A stretch of DNA of 64,000 bases from Marinobacterium stanieri (lineage in GTDB: Bacteria > Pseudomonadota > Gammaproteobacteria > Pseudomonadales > Balneatricaceae). The notes below the pieces were generated by a model. The model did not search any database, was not told the origin of the DNA, and saw nothing but the letters and a program-made list of their open reading frames with translations. Both the position numbers and the translations under genes were made by a program. Below, piece by piece: positions 46,083 to 60,943 of the stretch (within the stretch, counting starts at the first letter, position 1; each line of letters opens with the position of its first letter). Location of the stretch: contig NZ_FTMN01000002.1 of the NCBI RefSeq assembly GCF_900155945.1, positions 310,001 to 374,000 of the forward strand, written 5' to 3'.

Positions 46083-47621
46083 TTATCCTTCGCCCTCTTT
46101 CACTGTGACCTCCAGGCCACGTCCTCGCATTTTGCCGAACATGGCCGACAGCAGTGGCAACAGCAGAACAATGGCGGCGATAGTCGTGATGGTGAGCGTC
46201 AACGGACGGTCCCACAGGAACGCAAAGCTGCCATCCGACATGGTGAGCGCACGACCCAGGTTTTTCTCCATAATGCCGCCCAGAATGAAGCCCAACAGCA
46301 TGGGCGCCATGGGGAACTCCAGCAGTTTGAGGAAGATCGCACCCAGGGTGATGAACACCATCATGTAGATATCAAAGGTGTTGAAGCTGACCAGATACAC
46401 GCCGGTGATCGAGAAGAACAGGATCAGCGGAATCAGGATCGGACGCGGAATCGCCAGCAGACGTGAGATATACGGAATCAGCGGCAGATTCAGGATCAGC
46501 AGAACCAGGTTACCGAAGTACATGGAGATGATCACCGACCAGAATACGTCCGGATTATCCACGAACAGGCGCGGTCCCGGCTGAATGCCATAGGCGATCA
46601 ATGCGCCCAGCATGATAGCCGTGGTGCCTGAACCGGGGATACCCAGGGTCAGCAGAGGTACAAAGGAGCCAGTCGAAGCCGCATTGTTGGCTGACTCAGG
46701 CGCCGCCAGGCCGCGCAGAGAGCCCTTGCCGAACTTCAGTTTTTCCTTGGCCGATGCCAGGTTTCGCTCCAGGCCGTACGCCATGAACGAAGCGATGGTC
46801 GCACCCGCACCCGGCAGCACGCCCACCAGGAAGCCAAAGACTGAAGAGCGGCCAATGGTCGGTGCCACTTCCTTGATCTCTTCCTTGCTCAGTTTCATGC
46901 TGCCCAAAGAAGCCATATCCATCTCTGGCTCTTCTTCGGCATGCTGGCCGCGCATCACGGTCATGATCACTTCAGTCAGGGCAAAGGTTGCCATCGCCAG
47001 CAACAGGAAGCTGACGCCATCGATCAGGTCGACACTGCCAAAGGTAAAGCGGGTCGCACCCGAGGTAATATCCGTGCCCACCGTGGCGATCATCAGACCG
47101 AAAATGGTCATTAACAGCGCTTTGATGACCTGCCCCTTGCCAGAGAACGCAGCGACAGCGGTCAGACCCAGCAGCATCAGGGCAAAGTAGTCACCGGACT
47201 GGAAGCTCAGCGAAACCGAAGCCAGTGCAGGTGCGGCAAACAGCAGAATCAGGGCACCGATGGTGCCACCGGTAAAGGATGAGTACGCGGCCAGCGCCAG
47301 CGCCTTGCCCGCCTGATTTTTCTGCGCCAGCGGAAAGCCGTCAAACGCGGTCACAACAGTACTGGCACAGCCCGGCGCATTCACCAGAATGGATGAAGTT
47401 GAGCCACCGAATACGGCGCCGTAGTAAACACCCGCCATCAGGATGATGCCTGAAGCCGGATCAAGGCCGTAGGTGACCGGGATCATCAGCGCAACCGCCG
47501 AGATCGGCCCCAGGCCAGGGAGCATGCCGATGAAGGTGCCGGCAAAGCAGCCCACCACCACCATCAACAGATTGAAGGGCATTACAGCGGTGCCCAAACC
47601 GGTCAGAATTCCGTCCCACAT
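46083..47621 (-). CDS. tctA: tripartite tricarboxylate transporter, large permease TctA
   Basis: A 512-aa protein with about twelve membrane helices, matching the TctA family. It has the GTFIGMLPGLGPISAVALMIP signature near residue 30, repeated as GFLVGVLPGAGATIASFMAY in the second half. It imports tricarboxylates or related acids with ion gradients, using the TctC binding protein. Starts 5 nt after tctB. Confidence 0.94.
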   Translation of the reverse strand: MWDGILTGLGTAVMPFNLLMVVVGCFAGTFIGMLPGLGPISAVALMIPVTYGLDPASGIILMAGVYYGAVFGGSTSSILVNAPGCASTVVTAFDGFPLAQKNQAGKALALAAYSSFTGGTIGALILLFAAPALASVSLSFQSGDYFALMLLGLTAVAAFSGKGQVIKALLMTIFGLMIATVGTDITSGATRFTFGSVDLIDGVSFLLLAMATFALTEVIMTVMRGQHAEEEPEMDMASLGSMKLSKEEIKEVAPTIGRSSVFGFLVGVLPGAGATIASFMAYGLERNLASAKEKLKFGKGSLRGLAAPESANNAASTGSFVPLLTLGIPGSGTTAIMLGALIAYGIQPGPRLFVDNPDVFWSVIISMYFGNLVLLILNLPLIPYISRLLAIPRPILIPLILFFSITGVYLVSFNTFDIYMMVFITLGAIFLKLLEFPMAPMLLGFILGGIMEKNLGRALTMSDGSFAFLWDRPLTLTITTIAAIVLLLPLLSAMFGKMRGRGLEVTVKEGEG

Positions 47622-47625
47622 GAGA

Positions 47626-48099
47626 TCAGCCTCCGAACAGCGATGTAAAGATGCGACCCGGCGCCAGATAGATATCCAGCAGCTGTGCCAGCATGAACCA
47701 GAGCACTACCGAGAACGGCACAGAGGCCAGAAGCAGGGTTTTGACCTTGCGTACACCCAGAATCCAGTAGCCTCCCATCAGGAACAGGATGGTGGAGAGC
47801 AGGAATCCAAGCCAGGGCAGGACAAAGCCCAGCAGCATTACCAGTACCAGCAGCTTACCCACCAGCCAGAAGTCATAGCCGGCCAGTTTCACACGGCCTT
47901 CGGCAGAGCGGTCGGCGGTGACGATCAGGGCAACCGAAAGAATCCCACCGAGGACTGCCAGAGCACTGGGCAGAGATTGAGCGTTAAAGGGAGCAAATTC
48001 ATCACCCGGCAGCAGCGGTATATCACCTGTGTAGTAGCCATAGGCCACCGACAAACAGAGAAATACCAGACCACCGATGTGATCCTTGGAAATAGTCAT
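47626..48099 (-). CDS. tctB: tripartite tricarboxylate transporter, small permease TctB
   Basis: A 157-aa protein with four membrane helices (about 9-27, 44-62, 80-110 and 118-145), the size and layout of TctB. It lies between tctC and tctA on the same strand. Confidence 0.88.
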   Translation of the reverse strand: MTISKDHIGGLVFLCLSVAYGYYTGDIPLLPGDEFAPFNAQSLPSALAVLGGILSVALIVTADRSAEGRVKLAGYDFWLVGKLLVLVMLLGFVLPWLGFLLSTILFLMGGYWILGVRKVKTLLLASVPFSVVLWFMLAQLLDIYLAPGRIFTSLFGG

Positions 48100-48152
48100 G
48101 ATCGAGTCCTCGTTGGAGCGGGGTAAATCGAGGGGGTCAAAAGGGAGTGGCC

Positions 48153-48172
48153 CGCACTCATGTCAGAGTGCA
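48153..48172 (-). other. stem-loop between tctC and tctB
   Basis: GCACTC-ATGTCA-GAGTGC with partly pairing GC-rich flanks and no T-tract. Hairpins here in binding-protein operons often protect the upstream message, giving more binding protein than permease. That role is inferred. Confidence 0.45.
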
Positions 48173-48183
48173 GGCCCGGATGA

Positions 48184-49167
48184 TCAGCGCAGGAAGCCCA
48201 GTTCGCGCATCAGATCACCGATCTCCTGTTCCTGCTGCTCAAGGAAGGCAACAAATTCATCACCCGGACGGAAGTCTTCGGCCCAACCATTGCGGTCGCG
48301 CACTTTCGCCCACTCTTCGGTACCGTACATTTTCTCCAGCACCGCGATAAACTCGTCACGCTTGCTCTCGGCCAGACCCGGCGCTGCGAAGAAGCCACGC
48401 CAGTTGACAAAGGTGGCGTCGTAGCCCAGCTCTTTCAGCGTTGGCACATCGGCAGCAGCGCTGGAACGCTCAGGGCCGGTCATCGCCAGGATGCGAACTT
48501 CACCCGCTTCGGCCAGCGCCAGTGCTTCACTGAAACCGGTGGACAGCACATCCGCTTCACCGGACAGCAGACCTGCCATCGCCTTGCCACCGGCATCATA
48601 GGCCAGGTATTTGACCATGCGCGGATCACCGCCGGCGGCCTTGAATGCCTGAGCAGCGACCAGGTGGTCCATGCTGCCTCGTGCAGAACCGCCCACGACG
48701 GTCACGGAACGCGGGTTCTCCAGGTAGGCATCGGCCAGCTGGTTGAAGCTGGTGTATTCAGAGTCAGCCTTGACCACAAACGCACCGAAATCACCGATAG
48801 TTGCGGCAACGGGTGTCAGGTCGCGGAAGGACTGCGGGAATACTTTTGACAGGGAACGGATGACGATCGGAGTCGAGTTGACCATCAGCGTGTCTTCTGA
48901 CTGCTCGGCCACTTCGATCAGGTGGGCAATCGCCTTGCCACCGCCGCCGCCGGACAGGTTTTCGTAGGAGATGGTCTCAACCAGACCAGACTTCTGCAGC
49001 GCTTCACCGGTACCACGTGCAGTACCATCCCAACCACCACCGGCGCCACCGGGGATGAGGAAGTGGATAGTATCAACTTCAGCCTGAGCCACGCCGGCAG
49101 TCAGACAGGATGCCAGTGCAGTGGCCAGAACGGTGGAGCGACGGAAAGAAAGCATTTTAGAGCGCAT
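48184..49167 (-). CDS. tctC: tripartite tricarboxylate transporter binding protein TctC
   Basis: About 327 aa from the ATG at 49167: signal peptide (MLSFRRSTVLATALASCLTAGVAQA), then the Bug/TctC fold starting VDTIHFLIPGGAGGGWDGTARGTGEAL. The family loop GGSARGSMDHLVAAQAFKAAGG is present. Captures a carboxylate in the periplasm. First gene of tctCBA and divergent from a CitA/CitB-type pair, which probably controls it. Confidence 0.93.
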   Translation of the reverse strand: MRSKMLSFRRSTVLATALASCLTAGVAQAEVDTIHFLIPGGAGGGWDGTARGTGEALQKSGLVETISYENLSGGGGGKAIAHLIEVAEQSEDTLMVNSTPIVIRSLSKVFPQSFRDLTPVAATIGDFGAFVVKADSEYTSFNQLADAYLENPRSVTVVGGSARGSMDHLVAAQAFKAAGGDPRMVKYLAYDAGGKAMAGLLSGEADVLSTGFSEALALAEAGEVRILAMTGPERSSAAADVPTLKELGYDATFVNWRGFFAAPGLAESKRDEFIAVLEKMYGTEEWAKVRDRNGWAEDFRPGDEFVAFLEQQEQEIGDLMRELGFLR

Positions 49168-49242
49168 AGCCTGTACCTCATTATTTTTGTATTGGTTGGA
49201 GGTAAGACTAGGCACCCGCTCTCGGTTAAAAAAGTTTATGAA

Positions 49243-50993: not shown

Positions 50994-51693
50994 TCCCATT
51001 CGCGTTGTGGTTGCCGAAGATGACCCGCAAATCGCCGAGATCCAGCAGCGCTTCCTTGAGCGCATTGACGGTTTTGAGCTGGTTGGGCTGGCTCACAGTC
51101 TGGATACCGCCCGGGACCTGGTGGATGTCATGCAGCCAGAACTTCTGCTGCTGGACATCCAGTTCCCCAACGGCACCGGACTGGACCTGCTGCGGGAAAT
51201 GCGCACTCAGAACAACGCCACCGACGTAATCCTGATTACCGCCGCCCGGGAAGTCGACACCCTGCGTGAAGCACTCAGGGGCGGTGTATTTGATTACATT
51301 CTCAAACCACTGGTGTTTGAACGCCTGCGCGATGCCCTGCAGGAATATGCCCGCCACCTGGAACGGCTGCGGTCGATGGAATCCCTGGCTCAGTCAGACG
51401 TGGACAGCCTGCTGCCCCGAAGCAAGGTGCCACAAGCCGACACGGCAGCGCCTGACACAACAGAACAGCGCCTTCCCAAAGGAGTGGATGCACTGACACT
51501 GGAGAAAGTGAGAGCTGTTTTTGCTGCCACCGACGCATCTCAAAATGCCGAAGAAGTGGGCGCCACCATCGGCGCCAGCCGCACCACCGCACGCCGGTAC
51601 CTGGAATACCTGGTCAGCACACGTGAATTGGAAGCTAGCGTCAATTACGGCAGTGTGGGTCGTCCCGAGCGGCGCTACCAGCGCACTCAATGA
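50986..51693 (+). CDS. CitB/DcuR-type response regulator
   Basis: A 235-aa protein: receiver domain with VVVAEDDPQ, phosphorylation site Asp57 (LLLLDIQFPNGTG) and the conserved ILKPL Lys. A linker is followed by a C-terminal helix-turn-helix of the CitB family (AEEVGATIGASRTTARRYLEYL). Partner of the kinase just upstream. The 3' end overlaps the convergent GGDEF gene by 7 nt. Confidence 0.92.
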   Translation: MTNPIRVVVAEDDPQIAEIQQRFLERIDGFELVGLAHSLDTARDLVDVMQPELLLLDIQFPNGTGLDLLREMRTQNNATDVILITAAREVDTLREALRGGVFDYILKPLVFERLRDALQEYARHLERLRSMESLAQSDVDSLLPRSKVPQADTAAPDTTEQRLPKGVDALTLEKVRAVFAATDASQNAEEVGATIGASRTTARRYLEYLVSTRELEASVNYGSVGRPERRYQRTQ

Positions 51694-53456
51694 TCAGAAC
51701 GGCCGGATGACGACTCCGAGCGGCCAATACTGCCCACCTGCGGCCAGGCGCAAACCCGGTTGCGGCCACCTTCCTTGGCACAGTAGAGCGCCTCATCGGC
51801 CTGGCGCACCAGCCAGTGTCGGTCCTGTGCGGGGCAGTCACGGGTATGCAGGGCAACGCCCAGACTCAAACTGACCTGCCCCATCGGCGATTCAACATGA
51901 GGCAGGTGCAGCTGCTCAACGGCCTGACGGATACTCTCTGCCACCCGCAGCGCCCCTTCCAGATCGGTGTTTTGCAGCAACATCACAAACTCTTCACCGC
52001 CATACCGGGCCGCCAGATCCGTTGCCCGTTTCAACTGTAGCTGGAGTTCGTCCGCGATGGCCTTGAGACAATCATCACCAGCCAAGTGACCATAGTGGTC
52101 GTTATAGAGTTTGAAGTAGTCCACATCCATCATGATCGCAGCCAAGGGCTCTCCGCTGCGCTCAACCCGCGCCCACTCTCGCTCCAGCACCTGATCAAAC
52201 AGGCGCCGGTTGGCCAGCCCCGTCAGGCTATCGGTATTGGACAGCGCTTCCAGCCGCGCATTGGCCTGTTCCAGCTCCTGGGTACGATCAGCAACCTTCT
52301 GTTCCAGTTCACTGCTGAGCGCCTGAAAGCTGGCCAGCAGTTGCCGGGTTTCCTGATTCTTGGACCTGAATACCTCGGCGGCACGTGCCAGCTCGCCCAA
52401 CTCATCGTCCGCATCCTGACGCTCGATGCTGGTACTGTCCTTGCCCCGTGCCAGATCCATAAAGGTTTTGGCCAATGACCGGATCGGGTCCGCCACGCTA
52501 TGCCCGATGAGATAGGACAACAGCAGAACCAGCACCAGAAGGCCCAGGCAGATCCAGAGCACCCATTGCCCGGTCCAGCGCATTTCCGCCACCGCCTGCT
52601 CTTCGATGTTTTTCATTTCAGCCTGTATCAGTTCGGCCAGATACTGGGTCTGGTACAGCATCTCATCCGCTTCCGCGGCCATCACCACATTGACCAGATA
52701 CATATACCCGCGCGTGCGTTGAACCGCTTCCAGTATCACGGCTTCGTAGTTCTGCAGAGATTGCAGCATCGCATCCAGCAATGCCTGAGCTTCGGGGCGG
52801 ATCTCCAGCAGGGCAAAGCCTGACATCAGCTGACGGCTTTCCCGCATCCACTGCTGCATCCGCGTGATATGGCGCCCATCCAGCGTATAAAAATAACGTG
52901 AGGCCCCCTGCTCCACCCTCAGCAAAGCGGTTTCGAGCTCTGCCAGCTGGTCAACCGGCGCTGCTCGACCGCTGCCCTGCAGGCGGCGGTAGGCTTGCAG
53001 CAGACGATTCACTTCACTGGCGTGATCGGCAATACGCTGTTCAACCAGTTCGGCACGCCGCTGACGCTGGCGCTTCACGTCCTCAAAGGTACTGGTGTAG
53101 ATATTCAGGTGCTGGCGAATCGACTCGACCCGCTCCTGCACTTCAGGCTGGCCACCCTGCTCCAGCTGCAGCAGGATCCGCTGCACCCGCTCACTGATAT
53201 AAGCCGCCTGACGGGCACCGGACACCTGACCGTCCTGCATGAACAGGTCGGCCGAGCGCTGCAGTTCAACCACATTACGCGACAGTTCCTGCCCTCTGAG
53301 CGCACTTTCGCCATGCTCGGTAAAGTGCTTGAACTCACCAAACAGTGACATCACGCTGAAATAGGCCAGCAACACCATCAGCAGGGCTATTCCCCCGGTG
53401 ATGATGTAACCGGCGTAAATGCGTGTACGCAACTTGAAATAGAAAGTGCTCACCAT
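51687..53456 (-). CDS. membrane GGDEF diguanylate cyclase of the binding-protein operon
   Basis: About 589 aa: membrane helix (about 15-37), a long helical periplasmic region (about 40-290) like the four-helix sensor domains, second helix (about 297-318), HAMP and coiled coil (to about 405), and a GGDEF domain with GGEEF near 486-490 and an intact inhibitory site RATD. It should make c-di-GMP. The ATG at 53456 follows the stop of the binding-protein gene, so the two are coupled. It probably responds to ligand carried by that protein. Confidence 0.88.
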   Translation of the reverse strand: MVSTFYFKLRTRIYAGYIITGGIALLMVLLAYFSVMSLFGEFKHFTEHGESALRGQELSRNVVELQRSADLFMQDGQVSGARQAAYISERVQRILLQLEQGGQPEVQERVESIRQHLNIYTSTFEDVKRQRQRRAELVEQRIADHASEVNRLLQAYRRLQGSGRAAPVDQLAELETALLRVEQGASRYFYTLDGRHITRMQQWMRESRQLMSGFALLEIRPEAQALLDAMLQSLQNYEAVILEAVQRTRGYMYLVNVVMAAEADEMLYQTQYLAELIQAEMKNIEEQAVAEMRWTGQWVLWICLGLLVLVLLLSYLIGHSVADPIRSLAKTFMDLARGKDSTSIERQDADDELGELARAAEVFRSKNQETRQLLASFQALSSELEQKVADRTQELEQANARLEALSNTDSLTGLANRRLFDQVLEREWARVERSGEPLAAIMMDVDYFKLYNDHYGHLAGDDCLKAIADELQLQLKRATDLAARYGGEEFVMLLQNTDLEGALRVAESIRQAVEQLHLPHVESPMGQVSLSLGVALHTRDCPAQDRHWLVRQADEALYCAKEGGRNRVCAWPQVGSIGRSESSSGRSDH

Positions 53457-53458
53457 GA

Positions 53459-54721
53459 TCAGGCCAGCAAAAACTCTTTCCACTTGATCAGGGTGTACTC
53501 GTAGTTATCCATGACCGTATTCCATACCGCTATATTCTCGAATCGCTGCTGATAGGAACCGCCGGTACGTACTTCACCCTCGGCAACAGAAAACCGTCCG
53601 TCAGTCCCTTTCAAACGCTGGGCCGCTGGCTCTCCCTCATACCAGTAGTCCCACTCGGCGGCACTCATGAAGCGACGTGAGCGCTCCGGGTTGGCGATGT
53701 AATAGCCCTGGCGGGCAATAAACGCACCGGGCCAGCCGGACAGCCACCAGTTCATAAAGGCATAGGCCGCCTCCTTGCGCTCGCCCTCACAGTGAGACGA
53801 CAGGCACATCACGCCATGCCAGGCTCGGTAGCCTTCCCTAGGAGCAGCATAGACACAGGGAACCCCCATGCCATTAAGGCTGCTGACACCTGGGGAAAAC
53901 ATGCTCTGAATCCAGACCTCTTCATTCTGCATAAGCTCAACCGATGCCGGTACGGAAGACCAGACACCCCGAAAGTGCCCCCTGCGCTTGTACTCAACGG
54001 CAATTTCAAACAGCAGGTCCAACTCGGTACGGCTCATATTGCCAATATCGGCAAACTGCATCAGCCCACGTGCCTGCACCGCCAACGCCAGGTCGAACAG
54101 GCCGATAGTCGGCGCATTCACAATGGCCACCTTGCCGTGGTAGTCAGGGTTCAGCAGCCAGCCCCAGCTTTCGGTTTCGTAAGGCACGCCCTGGGCTATA
54201 CGACGTGAATCGTAGCCAAAGGAATCCGTGTTATGAACGTAAGGTAAAAAGCTGATATGGCGGCTTGGCTCTGGCGCCAGCGTCCCTTCCGGCTGCACAT
54301 AGAGTAGTTTGTAAGGCGCATCCCCCTGACCCAGACGGGCATCCGGTGAGATGCGTCCGGTTTTGGTCAGGCTGTTAATCTCGTTCCAGTACTTCAACCG
54401 GCTAATTTCAATAGGCTGAATCGAGCCGGCCTGCCAGAGAATGCGAATACTGTTGGACCACTGTTCGTAAAGATCAAAGGACTGAGGGTTGGTTGAGGCG
54501 CGCAGCAGGACACCAGCACTGCCGCCGGGATGAAACTCGATATTGATGCCCAGATCCTGCTCGGCACGCTGACGTATTGCTTCCTGCAAGGTCACATGAG
54601 TACCCAGCACCCGAATGGTGGGTTTGCGATTGACCGCCGAAACAATAGCGGGAAAGCCCGCTGACGCTAGGCCCGAAGCCGCTACCATTCCCGCCTTGCG
54701 GAGGAATTGACGTCGTTGCAT
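53459..54721 (-). CDS. orphan periplasmic solute-binding protein (extracellular family 1-like)
   Basis: A 420-aa protein with a twin-arginine signal (QRRQFLRKAGMVAASG). The mature part has the ABC-type binding fold: TIRVLGTHVTLQEAIRQRAEQ, LLRASTNPQSFDLYEQWS, FLPYVHNTDSFGYDSRRI, and AFMNWWLSGWPGAFIARQGYY typical of PotD/family 1 binders. No permease or ATPase gene is nearby. It sits between a hybrid kinase and a GGDEF protein on the same strand, which suggests a sensory and not a transport role. The ligand is unknown. Confidence 0.85.
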   Translation of the reverse strand: MQRRQFLRKAGMVAASGLASAGFPAIVSAVNRKPTIRVLGTHVTLQEAIRQRAEQDLGINIEFHPGGSAGVLLRASTNPQSFDLYEQWSNSIRILWQAGSIQPIEISRLKYWNEINSLTKTGRISPDARLGQGDAPYKLLYVQPEGTLAPEPSRHISFLPYVHNTDSFGYDSRRIAQGVPYETESWGWLLNPDYHGKVAIVNAPTIGLFDLALAVQARGLMQFADIGNMSRTELDLLFEIAVEYKRRGHFRGVWSSVPASVELMQNEEVWIQSMFSPGVSSLNGMGVPCVYAAPREGYRAWHGVMCLSSHCEGERKEAAYAFMNWWLSGWPGAFIARQGYYIANPERSRRFMSAAEWDYWYEGEPAAQRLKGTDGRFSVAEGEVRTGGSYQQRFENIAVWNTVMDNYEYTLIKWKEFLLA

Positions 54722-54828
54722 GTACCTTTCCCTTCGCTTGACCCTGCACGCACGTCTGGCAGGTCGTCCGGAACCTGAATCACTTCAGTATAGGTAAATG
54801 CCAGCAAGCTGCCATGCAAATGGCGACA

Positions 54829-57800
54829 TCAAAGGGTGTATTCAGCCAGGTCCAGCTCCGCCAGCTGTTCACGCTGCTGCTTCAACAGCTGCAACAGCGA
54901 GCGGGCAGCTTCAGCATCACCGCTGGTTCTCAGCTCGGCTTCCACCGCCTGACTGCGTTGCTCCAGTTCTCGGTTGGCAACGGTGCCGGCACCGCCCTTG
55001 ATCCGGTGTGCAACACCAGCCAGCGTATCACTGTCTGTGGTAATAGCCTGCTCCAGAGTGGCCGCCAGTTCATCAAGACTGGATGCAAAGGAGGCCAGAC
55101 AAGCCATGTAGATCTCTTCATCATCCCCGAATTGATGCTGCACCCGGTCGCGATCAATAAATTCGGGCAGGTTGTCTTTCCAGTCGGTCACACCATTTGT
55201 CGATACAGAAACAGACAGGGACGCGTTTTCGGGGGCCTTTTCATGTAGCGCTTCAGCAGACTCGCAGGCCTCTGCACCGAACAGCCTGGACAGGGCATCA
55301 TGCAGATCTTCCAGCACCACGGGCTTACCCAGGTAATCGACCATGCCTGCCTCACGCGCCGCTTCCTGGTCCCGCTCCAGCACTGAAGCGGACAAACCGA
55401 TCACCGGTGGTGCGCCATCCGGCAGAGCACGGGTTGCCTCGTAGCCGGTCATGCCATCCATATATACATCCATCAGAATCGCATCGTAACGCCCTTGGGT
55501 CACCCGCTCTATTGCCTGCTCACCGGACTCTGCCTCATCACAGGTCACACCCAGCTTGTGCAACAGGTGTACCACCACTTCACGGTTAACGGCCAGGTCA
55601 TCCACAACCAACAGGTGCAATGACGAAAATGTTTGCAGCCCCTTTGTCACCGGCTCTGGTTCAGGTTGTATCGACAAGGACTCAGGCTGACTAAATTCGC
55701 CACTCAGCGCCGCGAACAGCCGTGCCGGTGTTTGTGGCCCAGGCAGGCAGTAAACACTGACACCTTTTACATCACGTCCACAGGGAATCACGTGTCCTGG
55801 CGGTAGCAGCACAATCAAGCGCAGCCTGGCCGCAATGCCCGGATTCATTTCGGCTGCGGACAAAGCGGCTTGTACTGGAGCAGAATCAAGCTGTTTATCC
55901 CCCAGCAGAATCAACGCGTGCTGCCGGTCGGCACGGCCCAAAGCATCCTGCCAATCTGCCGGGTAGGGTAAAGCCTCCACGTCCCAATACACCAGCAATT
56001 GATGCAGGCTTTCGATGGAGGCTGTGTTACCTGCGTGTGGCAGATAAACACTGAGTTCAGGCAATCTCAAATCGGCATATCGACGGCTTTGCTCGGGCAC
56101 CTCCAGCGCGATTTTCAGGGTAAACACGCTGCCCATGCCCGGATGGCTATCTACTGAGAGTTCTCCGCCCATGGCTTCGGCCAAAGCACGGCTGATCGCC
56201 AGGCCCAACCCGGTGCCCCCGTATCGACGGGCAGTTGAATCTTCACCCTGATTAAAGGCCTGAAAAATCCGCTGCAGCTGCTCATCGGTCATGCCCACAC
56301 CGGTGTCAGCAATCGATATCGCCAGCTGTGCACTGGACTCATGCTCCGACAACAGCTCCATGCTCAAACAGATTTCACCCTGATGGGTAAACTTGATGGC
56401 ATTACCCATCAGATTGGACAGTATTTGCCCTAAACGAAGCGAATCTCCCAACAGCTGCCGCGGCAGTTGCGGGTCAATCTCGACACTAAGGTTCAGCCCC
56501 TTGCGCTCGGCTTCCAGCGCAAACAGATCTGCCGAGCGCTGTACCAGTTCTTCCAGGTCGAAAGGCGTTTTCTCGATACTGACACGCCCCGCTTCAAGCT
56601 TTGAAAGATCCAGGATTTCATTGAGAATCCGCAGCAGGGACTCAGATGCCTGATAGGCCTTAGCCGCATAGTTGCGCTGCGCCTCAGTCATCCCGGTATC
56701 CAGTAACAGCTGCAACATCCCCAGAATCGCATTCATGGGGGTGCGCACCTCATGGCTCATATTGGCAAGAAAGCTCTGCTTGGCCTCTGCGGCCTGCTCG
56801 GCCTCATGGGTACGGTCACGCAGCACCTGATCAGCCTGGCGTTGATCAGTAATATCTTCCACGATCATGATAAAGCCACGCTCACCACCCGAGAGCGGTA
56901 AATAACGCACCAACAACAGGCGCACCCCTCCGTTCGGGTGCGGATAAAGCGTTTCCAGCGACGCGGATTCACCCTGAAGCACTTTATCCAGCAGGGCGCG
57001 GCGGGACTCAAAGCGCTCCTCCCCCATGCATTCGGCCAGCGTCATGTTCAGCGCCTCGGCCTTGCTCAGCTCAAACCAGTCGGCACAGGTGGAGTTAATA
57101 AACTGGCAGCGGAAATCACGACCCCAGGCCGCGATCAGCACCGGCAGATGATCCGTCAGGGTTTCAATAAATGCGAGTGCCTCGCGTAACTGACGGGTAC
57201 GCCGCTGAACGTTGTGCTCCAGTATTTCCGATTGCTCATGGCTTTCCCGTACTTCCAGGCGCGCCAGTTCAGCCACTTCTCGACTTCGACGCATGGATCG
57301 GAGGGCAAAAAACAACACCAGCGCCCCCAGCGGAGCACTCAATATCATCGCCCTGAAAGTCCCCTTGTCAGGCAACAAGGATGTCATGCCTTCGTTATTC
57401 AAATGACTGGCAAGAAACCACTTTTCGTCCTTATGTACCGGAAAGGCAAAATCAAAGTCGATCGATACGGGCGTTATCAGCCAATGGCCCGCCTGCTTGC
57501 CCCGGGCTTCTGTTGATTGAGTAATAGCATCCAGTTTGACGTCAGGCGCATCGGGGTAAGTATACAACCCGTGCCCATGTCCCAACTGGGTCCGCCATGC
57601 CAGGTCCTCTTCCGGTGCGCTAAGCCAGTCAGCGTCACTATTGAGCATATAGGTATTAAACAGATGAACATCGTGATCACCACGCAGCTCATGCAGGAGT
57701 TTGCGGGCGTTGAGGTTAATGATCAGAAAGCCAGAACCTTGGGCCGACTGGTCCGCCAGACGCATCCCGATACGCAGAGTCGGCTGCAACGGGATCTGGA

Positions 57801-58281
57801 TGCTCCCCTGCTCAACGTTCAAATCGAGCCGAGAGAGATAAAAGTGCCCCGCAGGCAACTTCAACATTCGCTGGGTGTAGGGTCGGTCATGCTTGGGCTG
57901 CAGTTGACTGACCGGTACCAAGGCCGGCTCACCGATGGAATAGTGATTTATGCGCACCCGCTCCAGGCCCTGCTGGTCAATGTAACGCAATTGCAGGTAG
58001 TCAGGGTTGGTACTTGCCAGCAGATAGAGCGCGTTTTCAACTTCCTGCCAGCGCCCCTTTGATGCCAGACGGTACAGGGTATTGCCCAGTGCCTGCATCT
58101 GCAGCATGGGACGCTCCAAAGAATCGCGCAGAGACTGGTGGCGCTGCTCCAGCAATAGCGCCTCTTCTTGCATCAATATGGTGTGCGCCGCTTCGCTTCG
58201 GGACAGGTCGAGCCAGTAGCTGCCCGTCAGCAACATAATCGCAATGGGGATTACAAGGTATTCGTAGGCAAACCGCTGCAT
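54829..58281 (-). CDS. hybrid sensor histidine kinase with receiver and Hpt domains
   Basis: A 1150-aa protein: membrane helix (about 8-26), periplasmic sensor (about 30-305), second helix (about 310-328), coiled coil, PAS (about 370-480), H-box with His510 ([15 protein letters not shown]), ATPase domain (N627; [17 protein letters not shown]), a degenerate receiver-like region (about 735-860), a true receiver with Asp938 (ILMDVYMDG) and Lys in LGKPVVL, and a C-terminal Hpt with His1092 ([10 protein letters not shown]). All parts of a His-Asp-His relay are present; the final response regulator is not adjacent. First gene of the operon. Confidence 0.92.
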
Positions 58282-58445
58282 AAGACACCCTCACATTGGC
58301 CATCTCGGCATTAAGGCATAAACGTCAGCAAAGTGAAACGCTACCTCGGCCTCATACAAGCTCAGGTGTGATAAGCGTCAAGCAAGAAAGCTTGCAGGTG
58401 TCAGAACAGCACCCTGAAGGGAGGCGTATTGCCAATGATCATAAA

Positions 58446-58480
58446 CGAAAAAGCCCTGTTGAGTTTCCGCAACAGGGCTT
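58446..58480 (-). terminator. terminator of the displaced tRNA-Ser
   Basis: On the minus strand AAGCCCTGTT-loop-AACAGGGCTT is followed by TTTTCG. It lies just past the displaced tRNA 3' end at 58489-58507, in the position of a tRNA gene terminator. This marks the original chromosome beside the integration site. The rest of 58282-58445 holds only the upstream region of the hybrid kinase gene. Confidence 0.75.
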
Positions 58481-58488
58481 CTGAATTC

Positions 58489-58507
58489 GATGGCGGTGAG
58501 GGAGGGA
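58489..58507 (-). other. attachment site (left), tRNA-Ser 3' end
   Basis: A 19-bp sequence identical to 61722-61740. On the minus strand it reads as the acceptor end of a tRNA-Ser (CCCTCACCGCCA with CCA). The rest of the tRNA is absent here. Together with the terminator next to it, it is the displaced 3' end left after integration of an element. Confidence 0.75.
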
Positions 58508-58617
58508 GACCTAGCCAAGCACATAAAACCAACCCATCACGCCATAAACCAGCTGACATAAGGGATACAGAGGGATATGGTGTCAACTTTAACGTCAACT
58601 TTTACCTAAATGCCGCC

Positions 58618-59076
58618 ATGTCAGACACCAAGTATCTCGTTCAACGCAAGGGCATTTGGCTATGTAACTGGCGCGTTCCAAAGGACTGCGCCGGCCTGTT
58701 CAATGGTAAGAAAATGATCACCAAGAGCCTTGGCACTCATAAGCTCCCAGAAGCATATCTCAAGACCTTGGTTAGCCTGACCATGGACACTGTCGAACGC
58801 GCACAAGCCACAGCACTTCAGAATGTCCATGCCGGAGTCCAGCACGACCTAACCCCTGTCATGCTAGAAGCAACAAAGCTTCACCACGACGACAACGAGG
58901 GCAAACTAAAGATCAACGCACTAGGCCAGATCAATACCGCTGTTGAGCGATTCCTGACGACCATCGACAAGGACCAAATCACCTTGAAGCCCATCGGTCG
59001 ACTTATGGTCAAGGACTTCATGCCACGCCTTGGCTGTCTGTGTCACCGGCTGCCAAATCGAGGAGCTGTTTGCTCA
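58618..59076 (+). pseudogene. tyrosine recombinase, N-terminal fragment (decayed)
   Basis: The reading frame from the ATG at 58618 gives an N-terminal domain of DUF6538 type (MSDTKYLVQRKGIWLCNWRVPKDC, then KSLGTHKLPEAYLKTL) and a core-binding start up to KDFMPRLG. The frame then shifts: one frame over, 59031-59075 encodes LAVCVTGCQIEELFAQ, the recombinase box around the first catalytic Arg (normally TGxRxEE), with Gln in place of Arg. So the gene is frameshifted, shortened and has lost a catalytic residue. It lies next to the attachment site, as integrases do. The C-terminal half is at 60996-61456. Confidence 0.75.
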
Positions 59077-59305
59077 AGGTACTACATCATTTTACGAATA
59101 CTTTCCGGTTTGTATAAAAAGGTAAACTGATTTGAATCAACTTGGATGATTATCTATAAGTCTAGAGTTCTATCAAACAGTAGGTGATATCCCGTTTTGT
59201 CGCCTTAGCTTTATAACCCCAAAAAGTGGCATATTTAGGTCAAAATCTTATATGAACTAGCTGTTGCTCTGATAGCGATATAGCATTTAACGGAAACGAT
59301 TCAGT

Positions 59306-59503
59306 ATGGATCTTCAAAAATTAATTTCACAAATTGATTCCCCACTTTGGCTCATCAATCCTGACAGTTCTCCTCCACAAGAGATCATTTGGAGCAACTC
59401 TTCCGCACAAGACTTAATGGGTGATTCAACTATCTCTGAGCTGCGAAACGGGGAGCTTAGCGCCGTTTCTCAACCAAACCTTTCAGACTACAAAAGCAAC
59501 TGA
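59306..59503 (+). pseudogene. severed N-terminal part of the PAS-GGDEF protein
   Basis: A 65-codon frame (MDLQKLISQIDSPLWLINPD...) ending in TGA at 59501-59503. It is in the same frame as the diguanylate cyclase at 59591-60943, and no other stop lies between. The sequence around the stop (SDYKSN-stop-RLGETIQEIWTIYHKD) reads through as a continuous PAS-like domain. So this is the start of one longer gene interrupted by a nonsense codon. The region before it (59077-59305) is AT-rich and holds no feature. Confidence 0.6.
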
Positions 59504-59590
59504 AGGCTTGGTGAGACAATACAAGAAATCTGGACTATTTATCATAAAGACAGAATTTCTATTCTGACTTGTAAATTAAGCATTTTCCTC

Positions 59591-60943
59591 TTGGAGAGTG
59601 GGCAAGATGCAATTTTAGTTGAAGAATCAAAACAAAATAATGATCAATCTCATCTTAGCCTCAAAGTTGAAAGCAAGACAGTAAACACTCCTCGAAAAAC
59701 TTGTAAACACAACGATTCTTTGAAAAGTGATGATTTATACCAGAGTATATTTCAGGCTAATGCTGCCCCAATGATCCTCATTGCCCCAGATGAAGACGGA
59801 AGGATTATTGATGCGAACCAACGTGCTCTAGACTTTTATGGATACAATTATGAAGAGCTATGCTCCCTTCATACTTGGCAAATCAACACACTAGGTAAGA
59901 ATGTATTGCCTGTTATGCATGAGGTGCATTCATGGCCTGGTGGGCATAAGCCCCTTAGCTTTCAGCACATCACTTCTGATGGAAGCATCAGAGATGTTCA
60001 AACCTACGTCGGTCCTGTCGAAGTTAAAGGAAGAAGACTGATGCTAGGAGTAATTCACGATATAACTGCGCAGAAAGAAATCGAAAAATTTCACCAGTTG
60101 TTATTAGAAAGCTGTCACGCCGGTATTATATGTGTCGATAGTAAACATACTATTATTTATGCAAACCCTACTGCTGCAAGGTTATTGGGGTTCAGGCACC
60201 CTTCTGAACTGATTTCAAAGAAAATTAATGAGTTCTCAAACTTAGAAGATCAAACCCAAGGTAATATCGTCTCGCTTATTTCCAGCGTGCTATTTACCAA
60301 TAGTGCAAGTCTGGACTGCGAGGTCTATATGAAAACCAGAAATGGGCTCCTTCCATACTGGTGTTATTTATCCCCAATGCTTACAAGCAACATCCGTGCT
60401 GTGGCCATAAGTTTCTCAGAAATTTCAAGACGAAAACAACTTGAAGAGGAACTAAAACAAGCTGCTCAACGCGACCCTTTAACAAAAGCTCTTAATAGGA
60501 GGCAGTTTGAAAAGTTGCTTTCTGATGCCCATGCTCGCTACCTTCGCTATGGCGACATGTACAGTTTGATTATGATCGATGCCGATTACTTTAAAAATAT
60601 AAATGATCGTTATGGGCATGATGTGGGAGATCAGGTACTGATCAAATTAGTTAACACACTAAATAACCGCTTGAGAGAATCTGATCACCTATGTCGATGG
60701 GGAGGTGAGGAGTTCTTGGTTCTGATACCTAATTCAGATATAGAGCAAGCAAGAGCTCTAGCTAAAGATTTATTAATTTGTGTAAGATCTGAAAACTTCG
60801 ATATGGCTGGTAAGGTTACGGTCAGTATCGGTGTAGCTGCTGCTGATGGCTGTAAATCCTCAAATGAGGCAATAAAAAAAGCTGATCTTGCAGTATATAA
60901 GTCAAAAAACACTGGTAGAGATAAAGTTTCTTCACAGTATTAA
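59591..60943 (+). CDS. PAS-PAS-GGDEF diguanylate cyclase in AT-rich insert
   Basis: 450 codons from TTG at 59591: two PAS domains (about 48-160 and 165-285) and a GGDEF domain with GGEEF at 371-375 and an intact inhibitory site RESD (362-365), so the enzyme part is whole. No membrane segments. Base composition is clearly AT-richer than the rest of the window (codons such as AAA, ATT, TTA common), which points to transfer. The open frame continues upstream to the TGA at 59501, beyond which the natural N terminus lies. Whether a downstream start is used is unknown. Confidence 0.75.
   Translation: MESGQDAILVEESKQNNDQSHLSLKVESKTVNTPRKTCKHNDSLKSDDLYQSIFQANAAPMILIAPDEDGRIIDANQRALDFYGYNYEELCSLHTWQINTLGKNVLPVMHEVHSWPGGHKPLSFQHITSDGSIRDVQTYVGPVEVKGRRLMLGVIHDITAQKEIEKFHQLLLESCHAGIICVDSKHTIIYANPTAARLLGFRHPSELISKKINEFSNLEDQTQGNIVSLISSVLFTNSASLDCEVYMKTRNGLLPYWCYLSPMLTSNIRAVAISFSEISRRKQLEEELKQAAQRDPLTKALNRRQFEKLLSDAHARYLRYGDMYSLIMIDADYFKNINDRYGHDVGDQVLIKLVNTLNNRLRESDHLCRWGGEEFLVLIPNSDIEQARALAKDLLICVRSENFDMAGKVTVSIGVAAADGCKSSNEAIKKADLAVYKSKNTGRDKVSSQY

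Follow-up and report, generated by a model that had tools for sequence, protein, structure and literature searches.

In a 64,000-nucleotide stretch of the Marinobacterium stanieri genome (GCF_900155945.1, contig NZ_FTMN01000002.1, positions 310,001 to 374,000; hereafter the window), a gene for a solute-binding protein (SBP) lies immediately upstream of a gene for a membrane diguanylate cyclase. We propose that the two probably form a two-gene receptor, in which an SBP of the PotD fold, exported via the twin-arginine translocation (Tat) pathway, docks on the helical-bimodular (HBM) sensor domain of the cyclase and thereby alters cyclic di-GMP (c-di-GMP). The gene pair is conserved, the predicted folds match those of known binding proteins and receptors, and both the GGEEF and the product-inhibition motif of the cyclase are intact. 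The working unit looks to be this pair of SBP and membrane sensor, and not the neighbouring kinase, because relatives of the SBP adjoin the same type of sensor with different outputs.

The SBP (420 aa, SBP_bac_8, PF13416; 53459 to 54721) and the cyclase (589 aa; 51687 to 53456) are encoded on the minus strand, as are all of their features given below, and follow a codirectional hybrid histidine kinase of 1150 aa (54829 to 58281). Only 2 bases (53457 to 53458) separate the SBP stop codon at 53461 to 53459 from the cyclase ATG at 53456. The list of open reading frames (ORFs) holds an alternative cyclase start, a GTG nine codons upstream that overlaps the SBP gene and gives a longer ORF of 598 aa. 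The cyclase comprises a first transmembrane helix (TM1), a helical periplasmic domain, a second transmembrane helix (TM2), HAMP, a linker and GGDEF. Here, Pfam gives a strong match to GGDEF only, places HAMP just below its cut-off, reveals no EAL output, and returns nothing at an E-value of 0.1 or better in the periplasmic part. The active-site motif GGEEF (residues 486 to 490; 51987 to 52001) is intact, as is RATD (residues 477 to 480; 52017 to 52028), which conforms to the RxxD pattern of the product-inhibition site (I-site). The SBP starts with MQRRQFLRK, a twin-arginine pattern, and its gene has no ABC permease or ATPase beside it among the listed ORFs of the window. The nearest transporter genes, a TctABC-like set recognised by eye at 46083 to 49215, lie beyond a divergent kinase/regulator pair. 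In these respects our analysis agrees with a preliminary description of the locus, which had reported the three ORFs on one strand, the 2-nt spacing, a kinase with His510, Asp938 and His1092 intact, and a Tat-type SBP with neither permease nor ATPase.

The pairing of SBP and sensor recurs in nearly every related locus. We analysed 80 loci from one scan of genome contigs; as these are the best 80 of 195 confirmed, they lean to high identity (SBPs 59–74% identical), and many are metagenome-assembled genomes, whose phylum labels may be misbinned. In 79 of the 80, the next codirectional gene encodes a member of the sensor family: 78 were found by testing the downstream ORF, and in L072 the sensor is an ORF overlapping the SBP. 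The sensor profile was built from 40 sequences, and among the 41 loci outside its own alignment 39 are positive, or 40 with L072. The gap from the SBP to the next codirectional ORF ranges from -77 to +117 nt (79 loci, longest ORFs, including the unrelated ORF of L029). Upstream of the SBP, the neighbouring gene is divergent in 36 of 78 readable loci and codirectional in 42, in 38 of which it is at least 47 nt away, so that in most loci the SBP gene appears to come first. The twin-arginine pattern is also widespread, with RR in 67 of 80 relatives by regular expression and KR in 12, the remaining protein (L008) reading RREWF.

Genome-wide surveys give the same picture. Among 96 genomes, an SBP of at least 60% identity occurs in six (own genome included), and a full-length sensor is found in the same six, adjacent each time; the sensor-profile matches of 11 other genomes have E-values no better than 1.2e-23 and extend no further than position 247 of 327. 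In an order-wide draw, 28 of 390 genomes match the SBP at E ≤1e-120, five of them at only 47–48% identity, and in a class-wide draw 4 of 369 do so (both counts include the own genome). Stretches were fetched around all of these matches but the five at 47–48%, and 27 loci (11 repeats and 16 new) were examined. The sensor lies downstream of the SBP in all 27, in L188 as a 174-aa fragment at a contig end.

The output that follows the sensor varies between loci. Among the 80, it is a hybrid-type kinase in 42, a second type of kinase in 26 and a cyclase in nine, with three unassigned. Classes were set by BLAST to the domains of the window, with a cut at 35% kinase-core identity, together with Pfam tallies; six loci were classed by hand (L023 as hybrid, L030 as second kinase type, L034 as cyclase, and L007, L029 and L072 as unassigned). 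Pfam finds HisKA, HATPase and a receiver in 39 of 39 members of one set and GGDEF in 9 of 40 members of the other, a count that includes the window and omits L034, whose GGDEF is on a separate piece. The sensor genes of L023 (11233 to 14245) and L034 (11305 to 12950) are split into two or three ORFs, by frameshift or assembly error. In 19 of the 26 loci with the second kinase type, the sensor kinase is followed by a gene for a small single receiver (about 125–165 aa), judged by eye in an alignment of 21 ORFs, of which that of L036 is no receiver and that of L014 stems from a hybrid-kinase locus. The 16 new loci add three cyclases and 12 kinases, with one left unassigned.

On a tree of SBPs (86 rows, quick method, 27 of 81 inner branches open), parsimony requires 11 changes between the three outputs and four between cyclase and kinase, two of these four being dictated by starred branches. 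If starred branches only are counted, the minimum is lower: six changes for the second kinase label, three for the hybrid and two for the cyclase. The window joins three cyclase loci from its own family, at 96% SH-aLRT. Two pairs of loci, L035/L087 and L074/L088, have identical SBPs, and each pair looks like one genome sampled twice.

Some of the kinase loci may also lead toward c-di-GMP. In five of them (L003, L010, L013, L035 and L060), a gene combining a receiver with GGDEF, with or without EAL, lies near downstream (L003, 13567 to 16818; L013, 7451 to 9136; L035, 14571 to 15485; L060, 13622 to 14611), the receiver match of L010 being partial. This suggests that c-di-GMP is a shared end point of kinase-type and cyclase-type modules, and the cyclase form would then cut short a longer route to c-di-GMP. 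Genes with GGDEF are more frequent close to the pair than at a distance (16/277 vs 9/505, p 0.0046, one of the 16 being the detached piece of the L034 sensor), a p-value that is indicative only, because the test was devised after the maps had been seen. The M. stanieri genome has 79 GGDEF places in 4.68 Mb, so a GGDEF neighbour alone says little.

The periplasmic sensor domain of the cyclase (about residues 37 to 298; 52563 to 53348) spans some 260 aa and is helical. Its structure model (pLDDT 92) has six helices, of which the first and last are long enough to span the membrane, and the predicted periplasmic fold, six helices in two bundles with a membrane helix at either side, is of the HBM type, although remote in sequence. 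The best fold match is McpS (Z 22.7, rmsd 1.8, 227 aligned; Foldseek E 1.1e-4). Further matches are the LytS sensor of the XylFII-LytSN complex (5xsj; Z 18.4, rmsd 1.4, 122 aligned), McpZ (Z 18.0, rmsd 3.2), PilJ (Z 17.4–17.7, rmsd 5.7–6.5) and TorS, with Z 15.5–17.5 over 224–231 residues (3i9y: Z 17.5, rmsd 3.2, 224 aligned; Foldseek E 6.9e-4). For helical bundles a Z-score under about 13 means little; the matches given here exceed that value, as do rows of the unrelated TTYH (13.6–16.8, rmsd 6–22). TTYH, designed bundles and ciliary proteins were dismissed as unspecific similarities between helical structures. A membrane-proximal signature, RTRGYMYLVNVVMAAEADE (residues 247 to 265; 52662 to 52718), marks the family: L254, V255, N256, V257, M259 and E265 are invariant in 40 aligned sensors, for V255, N256 and M259 partly by choice, because members were selected via a VN..M pattern.

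The structure model of the SBP (pLDDT 90.5) is closest to YdcS (Z 35.0, rmsd 2.5, 327 aligned) and PotD (Z 32.0), with Z-scores of about 30–32 against PotD and PotF. The residues that we take to be the ligand contacts of PotF and PotD are replaced. Gly303 (53813 to 53815) aligns with the ligand-binding Asp of PotF (278) and PotD (257) and is Gly in 37 of 37 family members; the alignment of the D278 region was repeated in a second comparison, whose best chains are engineered PotF variants. PotF W37 (PotD W34) is matched by T41, D39 by V43 and Y40 (PotD Y37) by T44, each in 37 of 37 aligned sequences, and PotD D168 and E171 align with L211 and A214. The aromatic walls are retained, with F275, W301 and Y341 at the positions of PotF W244, F276 and Y314. 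A polyamine as the most likely ligand was therefore rejected: judging by these replacements, above all the Asp to Gly exchange in 37 of 37, the ligand is probably not a polyamine.

Distant SBP relatives have neighbours of their own. At 42–49% identity, they adjoin CobW-type GTPase genes (L089, L090, L093 and L134 by Pfam, pRL12 by annotation); such a gene is the neighbour in L134, L136, L137 and L142 (R. johnstonii pRL12, 130147 to 147361). Amidase, NCS1-type permease or polysaccharide-deacetylase genes lie near some of these relatives. The L137 protein, 392 aa by its longest ORF, has no recognisable signal peptide at its start. At 40% identity, the relative in L135 (4455 to 9509) sits in an ABC operon beside an Asp/Glu/hydantoin racemase gene. 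These neighbours give a weak hint of an amide- or ureide-like ligand, a lead that we do not adopt; CobW, amidase and racemase-type genes do not adjoin the SBP of the window.

Several known systems resemble parts of this arrangement. TorS of the TorT-TorS system (E. coli, Vibrio) has a helical sensor of matching fold that is docked by a binding protein (3o1h-3o1j), and the TIGR02956 TorS model matches residues 177 to 413 of the 598-aa ORF at E 1.8e-12, far under its cut-off. In contrast to TorS, the output in the window is a cyclase and not a hybrid kinase, although 42 of the 80 relatives do have a hybrid-type kinase, and the SBP has a PotD/YdcS-type fold, which presumably differs from that of TorT. 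No TorT-named row is among the SBP matches listed, which is not evidence against kinship. The LytS sensor, like TorS, was solved in complex with a binding protein according to the PDB entry titles, and it is a strong match to part of our sensor, but the match covers 122 residues only; XylFII-LytS couples a sugar-type SBP to a kinase output. McpS, the closest fold, is a chemoreceptor and differs in having been solved with malate and succinate bound directly (entry titles).

A functional parallel is NspS-MbaA of Vibrio cholerae and Sinorhizobium meliloti, a known SBP-fed c-di-GMP receptor described in PMC9993111. There, too, the gene of a PotD-type SBP immediately precedes that of a membrane c-di-GMP enzyme with a periplasmic domain and HAMP, at tight spacing (an overlap of 16 bp in V. 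cholerae and of 3 bp in rhizobia). MbaA differs in having SGDEF and EAL-type domains and lacking RxxD, whereas the present cyclase has GGEEF alone together with RATD. The polyamine contacts of NspS include D263 (PMC9993111), which would be the position of PotF D278 and PotD D257; the Asp of PotF and PotD is Gly here. A further difference is that relatives of the present pair use kinases as well as cyclases. SBP-fed c-di-GMP receptors are known as a principle, and the present pair would be a widespread member of that class, with a new branch of SBPs, a putative helical docking receptor and swapped outputs. Searches of open-licence PMC texts on binding-protein-fed receptors showed no description of the present family in titles and abstract beginnings, nor is it mentioned in the accessible portions of two overviews (PMC9602780 and PMC8846402).

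In the mechanism that we propose, the SBP would bind a small ligand, and the loaded SBP would dock on the helical bundle and set the activity of the cyclase, much as in NspS-MbaA or TorT-TorS. The change on docking would pass via TM2, HAMP and the linker to the GGDEF dimer and alter c-di-GMP. In the relatives, the same front end of SBP and sensor would instead feed hybrid kinases or relays of kinase and receiver, and some of them have a receiver-GGDEF protein downstream. For the family as a whole, we tentatively entertain a wider view, which we hold to be a little less probable than its opposite: that one strongly conserved SBP reads a single non-polyamine extracellular metabolite across several phyla, that its helical docking receptor has repeatedly exchanged its output, with 11 changes on the best tree among hybrid kinases, relays of kinase and receiver, and direct synthesis of c-di-GMP, and that a second kinase joined the cluster in a few genomes, that of the window included. 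SBP-driven control of c-di-GMP is known from few systems. The family offers paired SBP and receptor genes, a fold-level model, a membrane-proximal signature and natural output variants on a constant front end, which lets one test directly how a single docking event translates into kinase or cyclase activity. It also points to a widely shared signal that is accessible by ligand screening.

A number of observations weigh against the two-gene receptor as described. In L029 (9989 to 13497), the SBP stands without a sensor, and the next genes are CobB/CobQ-like and then DUF2202. Genomes with more than 23 sensor candidates were scored for 23 only, so the absence of the sensor elsewhere is not exhaustive. 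The helical bundle may itself bind a ligand, as McpS does. Adjacent genes for an SBP and a kinase need not encode partners: for three SBP_bac_8 proteins of P. aeruginosa (PA0602, AgtB and PA4985), tests against the AgtS/AruS sensor domains encoded beside them detected neither binding nor interaction (PMC11113362).

In one more distant genome, G096 (locus L192), a hybrid kinase of 1198 aa that shares the domain order of the window's kinase overlaps the SBP start by 4 nt. This kinase bears on the best-surviving alternative, namely a three-part system in which a single SBP would dock on the cyclase as well as on the upstream hybrid kinase, feeding both c-di-GMP and a phosphorelay. The preliminary description had suggested this arrangement; we consider it improbable. 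In its favour, kinase and SBP share a strand with a gap of 107 nt (54722 to 54828), and the L192 kinase is the sole PF21623 match of its genome. It is 31% identical to the window's kinase over 533 columns (kinase and receiver) and 30% over 130 (sensor), and in its locus the SBP is followed by a hybrid kinase with a helical sensor and not by a cyclase. Such a kinase beside the pair is thus found outside the window too, though seldom, and with a different third gene in L192. Codirectional kinases are also enriched at positions -1, +2 and +3 of 79 loci (16/125 vs 17/606 far genes on either strand), with a p-value of 1.9e-5 that is again only indicative, because positions were picked after inspection of the maps and same-strand near genes are compared with far genes of both strands; one of the 16 is a piece of the split sensor kinase of L023. 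At position -1 alone, 4 of 41 genes are kinases (p 0.038). Nine second kinases were scanned downstream of the pair, and all nine have receivers (N-terminal in five) and eight have HisKA. Against the three-part system, they resemble partners in a relay more than receptors for the SBP.

Other evidence separates the window's kinase from the pair. Its Pfam domains are a PF21623 sensor (HK_sensor_dom_bact; 57586 to 58056, minus strand), PAS, HisKA with His510, HATPase, a receiver with Asp938 and Hpt with His1092, and the PF21623 region belongs to a different family from the sensor of the cyclase. Of the 96 genomes, 47 contain relatives of its periplasmic domain, and the pair is present in only five of these (own included). 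In the five other pair-bearing genomes, PF21623-type relatives lie on other contigs (three), lie far away on the same contig (one) or are absent (one). No such sensor is among the genes shown at positions -2 to +3 of the 80 named loci; of the 27 re-fetched loci only L192 has one near the pair, and in ten pair-bearing genomes that were searched, one of 11 PF21623 places adjoins the SBP. The gap between kinase and SBP holds a single promoter-like match (54815 to 54787), in a region where the density of such matches is near chance (7 in 51000 to 59200 vs 4.6 expected). Of the three-part unit, the association of the SBP with a sensor of this family therefore stands (79 of 80 loci; six of six SBP-bearing genomes among the 96), while the kinase as a regular third member does not, L192 being the exception. 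The preliminary description would give up its proposal if the genes were not kept together in other genomes; this objection applies in part to the three-gene form and not to the pair. Dual docking is not indicated and has a low probability; the upstream kinase is better seen as an accessory neighbour that may answer a different signal.

Less probable still is that the helical domain senses a ligand of its own, with the SBP acting as antagonist, scavenger or second-ligand input. The ligand-bound McpS structures favour such direct sensing, as does the best PDB sequence match of the sensor profile, an 'ancestral PcpI' (E 5.6e-7); a chemoreceptor named PcpI binds salicylate weakly, with no SBP partner found for it according to PMC9543091. 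Against this stands the near-obligate pairing with the SBP. Moreover, the sensors are only 14–35% identical to that of the window whereas the SBPs are 59–74% identical, which suits a conserved ligand on the SBP. It is very unlikely that the SBP belongs to an ABC importer with genes elsewhere and precedes the cyclase only incidentally: relatives at 37–40% identity (L094-L097) do sit in ABC operons, but those at 59–74% are tied to the sensor, nine of the 96 genomes have 37–49% relatives and no full-length sensor match, so that the two kinds of SBP part company, and the only other SBP match in the own genome has an E-value of 5.1e-4. Permease relatives are absent within five genes of the SBP in all 80 loci, as searched with polyamine-type importer baits only, which recovered permease and ATPase in four of four ABC-linked control loci. 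Two matches were to the ATPase alone, in L003 on the opposite strand and in L008 beside a phosphonate-type binding protein. ABC permeases next to the SBP in close relatives, which the preliminary description had named as grounds for abandoning its proposal, were thus not found at 59–74% identity; the objection would apply to the 37–40% relatives.

At its 3' end, the cyclase gene overlaps a convergent response-regulator gene tail to tail by 7 bases (51687 to 51693). An SBP at 59% identity or more is absent from seven of seven congeners, but the G+C content of the three genes (0.562–0.590) is like that of the window (0.559), and we therefore do not claim a recent foreign origin for them. Beyond the kinase gene, an AT-rich patch at 58429 to 60943 (G+C 0.49 and 0.40 vs 0.559) contains a DUF6538 ORF and a PAS-PAS-GGDEF gene. 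It resembles the edge of a mobile element, and a tRNA-Ser-like 3' end beside it at 58491 may be an attachment site, although this is unproven; the 18-base pattern of this end occurs once in the draft genome.

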